Below, one piece after another: positions 18,793-20,014 of a DNA stretch of 22,272 nucleotides. Each line of letters begins with the position of its first letter. Positions within the stretch are counted from its first letter, which is position 1. The notes below the pieces were generated by a model. It was not told where the DNA came from and made no database searches. It saw only the letters and a list, made by a program, of their open reading frames with translations. Source of the stretch: a virus; the IMG/VR virus record IMGVR_UViG_3300027736_000274, positions 1 through 22,272 of that record, one strand, 5' to 3'. Position numbers and translations under genes: made by a program.

Positions 18793-19827
18793 TTATCGAG
18801 CCGCCCGCCAACTCGCGTTAATCTCGTCATCCTGTGGGATCAGGTGCCCATAATGCGTCTGCACCGTGACTAGTTCATCACCGAGCCATTTAGCGACCTT
18901 GTAGAGAGACACACCTCGCGACACCAACAATGACGCAAACGTCCGGCGGAGATCGTGAAACGTCACCGCCAGTCCGCACCGTTTCACCAGTGCATCAAAT
19001 GCTTTCCTGAAGTCGTAGCGATAGCGGTATTTCCCATGCTTCACCGTCGGTGCCAGCATAAACGGCTGATGCAATCCATAGACATCACGCAACCATTCCC
19101 GCAGCTCCGCCGTCATCGGCACCGTGCGATTGTCCCTGTCCTTCGGCTGAAACGTCGCCGTTGCCTGGATGTGAATCAGCCCCTCATCCAAATCGAACCA
19201 CTCAGGCCGTGCCTCGATGATCTCCAGCTTGCGCAGCCCAGCGTGCAACGCGCAAAAGATCCCGAACTTCAGTCCCGCATCAGCACACTCATCGAGCACC
19301 CGCCGCGCATCGGCTGGCAATAAGAAAACCTTACGCTGCCGCATCTTCAACTTCGGCACCTTGATCTCGCTCGTCGGATCTCGCGACACAATCCCCTGCT
19401 CGACCATCCACCCGAACCACCACCGCACCTGGTTCAAGTAACTCACCGCCGTGTGCGCATGCCGCTTCAGCCTCTCCTCAAACCATCGCCGCACCGCCGC
19501 CGCACCGATATGCCTCGGCATCGCCGCCCCCGTCTCCCGCGCAAACTCTCGCAGCACATACCGCCGCGACTTTAATGTAGAATCCGCCAGCCCCTCTTTT
19601 CGTTTCGCTGTAATGTATCTCTCAATCTCCGCCGTGCACGTCTGCGCCTCTTCACGTAATCGCGGCCCCTCCCGTCTCCTCACCCGCTCCGCCTCCTTCA
19701 TCGCCTCGCTCAAATCCCGCGTCCCCATAGACACCCGTTCCTGCTTCCCACCCGTCACAGGTGTCCACCGCAGCCACCACGTCTGCTTCCCTTTCTGCTG
19801 ATAGAGTCCGGCAGGTATGCTTTTCAA
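18793..19827 (-). CDS. int: Tyrosine site-specific integrase
   Basis: The 344-residue recombinase has an N-terminal part with QKGKQTWWLRWTPVTGGKQE and a SAM-like core-binding domain (about 62-150, YITAKRKEGLADSTLKSRRY). The catalytic domain carries R199 (LHAGLRKLEI), K229, H291 and R294 (HDLRRTFAS), and the nucleophile Y326 (THYGHL). The usual second His is Asp (WLGD, 317), a common variant in phage integrases. The only workable start is TTG 19827: an in-frame TAG lies nine bases upstream and no ATG follows before conserved sequence. The start codon sits inside the left pair of GTATGCT repeats, so the protein or a partner bound there could repress its own gene. It integrates the phage at tRNA-Pro(GGG), whose 3' half lies about 70 bases upstream. 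Confidence 0.92.
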   Translation of the reverse strand: MKSIPAGLYQQKGKQTWWLRWTPVTGGKQERVSMGTRDLSEAMKEAERVRRREGPRLREEAQTCTAEIERYITAKRKEGLADSTLKSRRYVLREFARETGAAMPRHIGAAAVRRWFEERLKRHAHTAVSYLNQVRWWFGWMVEQGIVSRDPTSEIKVPKLKMRQRKVFLLPADARRVLDECADAGLKFGIFCALHAGLRKLEIIEARPEWFDLDEGLIHIQATATFQPKDRDNRTVPMTAELREWLRDVYGLHQPFMLAPTVKHGKYRYRYDFRKAFDALVKRCGLAVTFHDLRRTFASLLVSRGVSLYKVAKWLGDELVTVQTHYGHLIPQDDEINASWRAAR

Positions 19828-19838
19828 AGTATGCTAAT
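19814..19838 (+). repeat. Left pair of GTATGCT repeats (integrase arm sites or iterons)
   Basis: GGTATGCTT (19814-19822) and GTATGCTAAT (19829-19838) are spaced 15 bases start to start. The same two sequences in the same order and orientation recur at 19989-20014. They overlap the integrase start codon. Confidence 0.75.
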
Positions 19839-19846
19839 TCACGCAG

Positions 19847-19863
19847 AAATAGCACAAATAGCA
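19847..19863 (+). repeat. Short direct repeat AAATAGCA x2
   Basis: AAATAGCA occurs at 19847-19854 and 19856-19863, period nine, between the left GTATGCT pair and the att core. It could be an accessory-protein site. Confidence 0.4.
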
Positions 19864-19869
19864 ACATCA

Positions 19870-19952
19870 ACAGCCCTCCTTCCGAGGGCAACTATGGTCG
19901 GGCTGGCGAGATTCGAACTCACGACCTCTTGCACCCCATGTAGGAGGGCTGT
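19870..19952. repeat. 11-bp perfect inverted repeat flanking the att core
   Basis: ACAGCCCTCCT (19870-19880) and AGGAGGGCTGT (19942-19952) are perfect reverse complements enclosing the 61 bases with the tRNA fragment. No T tract follows. They may mark the crossover region or bind a dimeric factor. Confidence 0.6.
19895..19940 (-). other. attP core: 3' half of tRNA-Pro(GGG)
   Basis: Read on the - strand this is the anticodon loop CATGGGGTG with anticodon GGG, the 3' anticodon stem GCAAG, the variable loop, a T arm with TTCGAAT in a 5-bp stem (GTGAG/CTCGC), the 3' acceptor strand CAGCCCGA and CCA. The CATGGGGTG string equals that of E. coli tRNA-Pro(GGG) as I recall it. The 5' half (acceptor TCGGGCT, D arm) is absent from the bases to the right, so this is not a complete gene. 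Carrying the 3' half lets the phage restore the host tRNA on integration. Confidence 0.85.
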
Positions 19953-19988
19953 GGGTGTGGGGTGTTGAGGGTGTGTGGATTGTGACGG

Positions 19989-20014
19989 GGTATGCTTGAG
20001 TGGGGTATGCTAAT
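19989..20014 (+). repeat. Right pair of GTATGCT repeats (integrase arm sites or iterons)
   Basis: GGTATGCTT (19989-19997) and GTATGCTAAT (20005-20014), spaced 16 bases, repeat the left pair (19814-19838) on the other side of the att core. Confidence 0.75.

Follow-up and report, generated by a model that had tools for sequence, protein, structure and literature searches.

An Abrupt GC Skew Flip at the attP Site of Temperate Phages from Verrucomicrobiota-Type Hosts

Introduction

In huge phages, GC skew along the whole genome falls into one or two domains, which have been read as signs of unidirectional or bidirectional replication, respectively (Al-Shayeb et al. 2020, PMC7162821). Phage P22 replicates bidirectionally before excision, using an internal phage origin, and the replicating arms leave the prophage via both att sites (PMC8575938). 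In SaPI and SCC elements, the origin is found directly downstream of a helicase gene (PMC7581432). How does the skew of small temperate phages compare? The open-access literature yielded no case of such a phage whose skew flip is tied to attP and cos, and it is this arrangement that is described here.

The DNA analyzed, referred to as the window, comprises all 22,272 b of an IMG/VR record. Because it has no end repeats, it represents a phage fragment; the phage is temperate, with hosts of the Verrucomicrobiota type. An initial annotation, made from the sequence of the window, noted that the skew inverts abruptly at its att site and proposed the divergent gap located there as a replication origin.

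Gene content of the window

The window begins with the portal and other head/tail genes, all on the + strand, followed by an integrase gene on the - strand and the first early genes on the + strand. The window lacks primase, helicase, terminase, and cos, all of which are found in its relatives. The late head/tail genes make up a C-rich domain (1..18643, +) recognized by composition, Pfam/PHROGs matches, and codon-position skew. Pfam/PHROGs identify, all on the + strand, the portal (2-1555), protease (2098-3228), capsid (3250-4131), and tape measure (11472-12623) genes. The tyrosine integrase gene (18793..19827, -; PF00589, E 2.9e-16; phrog_1) has a G-rich coding strand, as its four-fold sites show, with a GC3 skew of +0.59, so that the + strand is still C-rich there. 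The first early ORF (19992..20240, +; GC3 +0.68) encodes a small probable membrane protein, and its real start may be a later ATG at 20065. It is followed by a gene encoding a weak GntR-like helix-turn-helix (20313..20564, +; GC3 +0.66), a phage exonuclease gene (20561..21613, +; phrog_284; GC3 +0.51), and genes for a DUF6378 protein and an 88-aa ORF (together 21610..22202, +; GC3 +0.51 and +0.63).

Some smaller features deserve mention. A glycosyltransferase family 2 protein is encoded within the head gene cluster (4527-6230) and occupies the same place in relatives. Between the portal and protease genes, positions 1574-2083 hold a gene of low GC (about 43%) that lacks the skew of its surrounding domain and is missing in the closest relative; it is a recent insertion. 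An exact inverted repeat of 26 b is shared by two far-apart non-coding gaps (9498-9523 and 22217-22242). In skewed genomes, the gene caller yields some antisense shadow ORFs (e.g., 9524-10564), and claims about the minus strand are therefore based on named genes only.

The skew flip

On the + strand of the window, GC skew is about -0.2/-0.4 before position 19937 and +0.3/+0.5 after it, the change being complete within about 100 b. This position is the cumulative skew minimum of the window and falls within the attP core described below. Measured in 500-b windows, the skew is negative across nearly all of 1-19.9 kb, with the exception of a few short patches (e.g., 1501-2250 and 11501-12250), and, beyond 19.75 kb, stays between +0.19 and +0.36. 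In adjacent bins, the 100 b to the right of att average +0.54 and the 100 b to the left -0.23. When blocks of 300 b were shuffled, the CUSUM range matched the observed value in 0 of 2000 trials. The base counts through which the inversion had first been noticed are exact on recount: 31 C and 8 G at 19681-19740, 3 C and 32 G at 19941-20000, 22 C and 16 G at 15301-15360, and 8 C and 33 G at 20641-20700.

Does gene direction explain the flip? The initial annotation held that it does not, and its reasoning stands up. Late and early genes are both on the + strand and have opposite skews, carried by the third codon positions (about -0.2 to -0.6 in the late genes and +0.5 to +0.7 in the early ones), and the integrase, on the - strand, is written in the early-gene style. 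The flip is also present in non-coding DNA, and genes follow their regional context, as detailed below.

The attP site and its repeats

The attP core (19895..19940, -) corresponds to the 3' part of tRNA-Pro(GGG), from the anticodon loop to CCA. Complete tRNA-Pro(GGG) genes with an identical core adjoin related integrases in four host MAGs (G023, G047, G050, and G031), which identifies 19895-19940 as attP. The non-coding right flank (19941..19989, +) is strongly G-rich in composition.

The four GTATGCT copies on which the proposed origin partly relied are indeed located in and around the gap. Their number is weak evidence by itself, as 4 of 100 shuffles also give four, but their arrangement is conserved. 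They form two pairs, one on each side of the att core: the left pair (copies at 19815 and 19829; 19815..19835, +) overlaps the 5' end of int, and the right pair (copies at 19990 and 20005) spans 19990..20011 (+). Every relative carrying an integrase of this family, even at 53% integrase identity, has the pairs at matching positions in the form (G)TRTGCTAA, and the left pairs are present in host-integrated copies too. Around the att sites of phages with other integrases, they are absent. Because the pairs are fixed beside the tRNA-Pro core together with this integrase and are lacking with others, they are best read as predicted integrase arm-type sites, and a function as origin iterons is rejected.

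A direct repeat, GCAGAAATA/GCACAAATA (19842..19861, +), is conserved with all integrases of this family and is a probable accessory att site. An imperfect inverted repeat surrounds the att core (arms 19864-19880 and 19942-19958, +); it occurs in the window and in G001, and is absent from the other relatives. An AT-rich unwinding element was looked for in the attP gap and was not found, and the attP gaps of other integrase lineages have no shared sequence.

Complete relatives and the second border

Five relatives share the integrase of the window. The closest is G001, with 95% identity in the integrase and about 90% in DNA across the window. G001, G005, and G088 each have an identical 12 nt at both contig ends, just upstream of terS (GTTTAATTGTCT in L030/L031, GGTTTAATGTCT in L038/L039, and GGTTTAACGTCT in L202/L203, respectively), and many independent contigs start at that same base. 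Taken together, the matching ends and the shared start base predict a cos site, and the former make G001 an end-to-end genome of the closest relative of the window. G002 and G013 are circular in assembly. All five of these genomes have two skew domains with the minimum at attP. From attP to cos, where the early genes lie, the + strand is G-rich, and from cos back to attP, through the late genes and the integrase, it is C-rich. The two-domain pattern, with the same polarity, is found in at least 12 divergent genomes.

Cumulative skew over complete genomes, the check proposed along with the origin, places the minimum at attP in G001, G002, G003, G005, and G013; a minimum elsewhere, named beforehand as a refutation, was not seen in these genomes. 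In G004, the global minimum is not at att, where there is only a local one, because of where the record is cut; the sign still changes at att. The skew maximum is not opposite the minimum. Instead, it lies 0.3-0.5 kb to the right of the 12-nt cos (GGTTTAAYGTCT ends), within terS, and this border is gradual and diffuse, whereas the flip at attP is a step. The arms are unequal, at about 12 and 23 kb in the first group of genomes, where the G-rich arc makes up no more than about 0.30-0.38 of the total length, and about 4 and 28 kb in the second.

How closely does the flip track attP? The minimum falls at the identical base of the tRNA-Pro core in the window and in G001, G002, G003, G005, G087, G098, and G057. 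In G016, G086, G088, and G089, it falls at a tRNA-Ala(CGC) core, with int on the + strand and to the right of att. The att site of this second lineage had been guessed from its 3' end to be a tmRNA; Rfam returned no usable hit, and ARAGORN, applied to the host loci, identified tRNA-Ala(CGC). G013 and G015, which carry a different integrase, flip at their own att site, for which, in G013, an RNA family search found no match. In the second group (G091, G093, G094, and G096), int lies beside the primase, the G-rich arc comprises only primase-helicase (about 4 kb), and the remaining genes, which here lie to the left of int, are C-rich. With both tested att sites, tRNA-Pro and tRNA-Ala, and with several integrase arrangements, the flip stays with attP.

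A few relatives have peculiarities of their own. G016 encodes two different tyrosine recombinases (L056 1365-2357 and L057 1226-2470), of which the late arc carries one and the att site the other. G097 (L218/L219) has the same int-primase-helicase-terminase order and almost no G-rich arc; it may have gained its integrase recently. Among 68 Verrucomicrobiaceae genomes, an integrated prophage of the group with both ends was not found, while integrase relatives beside tRNA-Pro were.

Skew belongs to the region, not to the gene

Several lines of evidence show that the skew is not a property of individual genes. Within families, the GC3 skew of a gene correlates with the skew of its flanks (r = 0.84; n = 624 genes from 25 related contigs), and its sign follows context in 12/12 families having members in both contexts. 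Homologues of the exonuclease and the 88-aa early ORF lie in the C-rich arc of G011, in the same direction, and have GC3 skews of -0.27 rather than +0.51 and of -0.58 rather than +0.63, respectively. Among minus-strand genes, those for RHH repressors, which lie right of att, are C-rich on the coding strand, and int, on the left, is G-rich. Base frequencies at early four-fold sites are the complement of those at late sites, at a distance of 0.03-0.08 in 10 of 12 records; untransformed, the distance is 0.35-0.67. As a regional property of the strand, the skew cannot be attributed to gene direction, expression class, or recent fusion, and it fits an asymmetry between replication arms copied by oppositely moving forks.

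What kinds of mutation are involved? Among G002, G003, and G005, C to G and G to C substitutions number 72 and 65 in the C-rich arc and 19 and 30 in the G-rich arc. They are near balance in each, and the skew is thus maintained. The substitution asymmetry resides in C-G changes and in T>C versus A>G changes. Cytosine deamination was considered as a cause and rejected, as the rates of C>T and G>A per four-fold site are equal in both arcs. On the chromosome of host G084, leading genes have G 0.41/C 0.36 and lagging genes G 0.29/C 0.50, with A and T nearly unchanged; this is the same C-G exchange as between the phage arms, in weaker form.

A different pattern is seen in G017 (L042/L043) and G023 (L073/L074), Verrucomicrobiaceae MAGs with phage contigs that measure 35-37 kb. 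These contigs have one skew domain of 0.4-0.5, and their strand bias is extreme: in most genes, the skew at third positions is as high as +0.9. The integrase of these phages, of the same family as that of the window, is on the opposite strand and follows the domain. A single domain is what one-directional replication would give.

Where might replication start?

A non-coding gap of about 350-500 b follows the helicase gene in G001, G002, G004, G011, G088, G096, and G097. It contains short repeats, which are CCGTCAC, ACCCTCT, GGGTTTACG, or ACCTATGC depending on the lineage, as well as an AT-rich stretch before cos, and the repeat set swaps along with the primase-helicase module (G002 versus G004). 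The clustering of short repeats is significant in G002, G001, G011, G096, and G097 and not significant in G013, G087, and G088. With significance in some genomes only, the repeats were rejected as proof of an origin and are used as a lead. Judged by its sequence, the gap is a candidate origin or regulator site.

The model we lean toward, tentatively and knowing that it may well be wrong, is replication of the prophage in situ from an origin in this helicase-cos gap, with arms that end at attL and attR. The two skew domains would be the arms copied by oppositely moving forks. Most likely, replication would start outside the window, in the gap with repeats that separates the phage helicase gene from cos, and would take place largely in situ, prior to excision. 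One fork would copy the early arm as far as attL and the other the late arm as far as attR; circularization would then join attL and attR as attP, where the two arms abut. Arms that end at these sites would account for an exact flip at attP with any integrase, and their unequal lengths would need no explanation. Several observations count against this model. (i) The late-arm leading strand would be C-rich, while the host leading strand is G-rich. (ii) The skew maximum is diffuse and lies about 0.6 kb to the right of the repeats, while the flip at attP is sharp. (iii) The short repeats cluster significantly in some genomes only. (iv) The search of Verrucomicrobiaceae genomes found no integrated prophage of the group with both ends.

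The first two of these speak for an origin at or beside attP, over which the helicase-cos model is favored only slightly. Forks would set out from attP both ways and halt near cos, either because the replicating molecule is linear there or because of a barrier, and the leading strand would be G-rich. This is the polarity of host G084, with the same C-G exchange and unchanged A and T, which makes an attP origin a serious rival, and the global skew minimum, the sharpness of the flip (within 100 b), and a diffuse maximum, as expected of a terminus, agree with it. Nevertheless, we consider it rather unlikely. The origin would have to travel with unrelated integrase and att modules, whose gaps share neither sequence nor any origin-like anatomy. 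On a circular molecule, the forks would converge across from attP rather than at cos, and the fork would encounter the late genes head-on. The repeats in the gap, which track the integrase, are explained as arm-type sites, and a better candidate exists at the opposite border, where the primase-helicase gene is followed by repeats and an AT-rich stretch.

Could both borders instead reflect some other strand-asymmetric process, tied to the ends of the prophage (att) and of the virion (cos)? Examples would be repair linked to the ends, or forks that enter from the flanking chromosome on either side. Each border is a physical end of some form of the genome, and polarity and att tracking are jointly explained by neither origin model. 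We know of no such process in tyrosine-integrase phages, and the proposal seems unlikely. A further variant, that recombination at attP during excision or circularization starts forks that run out to the cos ends, would let initiation move with the integrase module; we regard it as improbable.

Even less probable is a cause at the level of genes, in which translation selects C-ending codons in late genes, early genes owe their skew to drift or transcription bias, and attP merely separates the classes. The ribosomal-protein genes of the host do lean to C (GC3 about -0.2 to -0.4), and attP does sit between late and early genes. However, the terminase gene equals the capsid gene in C-richness, early G-richness matches late C-richness as an exact strand complement, and the portal, capsid, and terminase homologues of G017 and G023 show GC3 skews of +0.4 to +0.9. 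Moreover, int and the RHH repressor, both on the - strand, have opposite coding skews on either side of att, and non-coding DNA flips as well. Translational selection is present in the host but cannot produce these patterns. Finally, a recent fusion at attP of two unrelated pieces, each with its own composition, was raised in the initial annotation and is scarcely credible: phage modules do exchange (int and primase-helicase swaps), but the two-domain pattern and its polarity are common to the divergent relatives, C to G and G to C changes are nearly balanced, and the newly inserted gene at 1574-2083 stands out by its missing skew.

Comparison with known systems

If the skew domains are indeed replication arms, base composition alone would reveal in what state a temperate phage replicates. 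With borders at attP and cos that are not opposite each other, most mutations would arise in the linear prophage (or the linear virion molecule) and not in the circle. Skew flips at attP would then offer a test, in uncultured phages, of which comes first in nature, excision or replication.

Lambda, D3, 16-3, Mx8, and Moulinsart were compared, and none shows the two-domain attP/cos pattern. Lambda and D3 resemble the phages described here in their order, cos - late - attP - early - cos, and in having attP adjoin int. Their skew, however, is weak and follows gene direction, and the late genes of lambda are G-rich on the coding strand. Moulinsart, an Akkermansia phage, is likewise a phage of Verrucomicrobiota and has a related terminase (31%) and primase, but it lacks two-domain skew.

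As in SaPI and SCC elements, a non-coding gap that contains short repeats comes after the helicase gene. The differences are that the element here is a phage encoding a CHC2 primase and a DUF5906-like protein, that the gap also holds cos, and that the origin is a candidate proposed on the basis of sequence. P22 is a pac phage with experimental evidence for its mode of replication; the present phages use cos, and in-situ replication is suggested by their composition. Unlike the huge phages, they are temperate, measure about 33-39 kb, and have unequal arms, with borders at attP and cos that do not face each other. That two skew domains can indicate the mode of replication is already known from the huge phages; a flip tied to attP and cos in small temperate phages seems to be new as far as the open-access literature goes.
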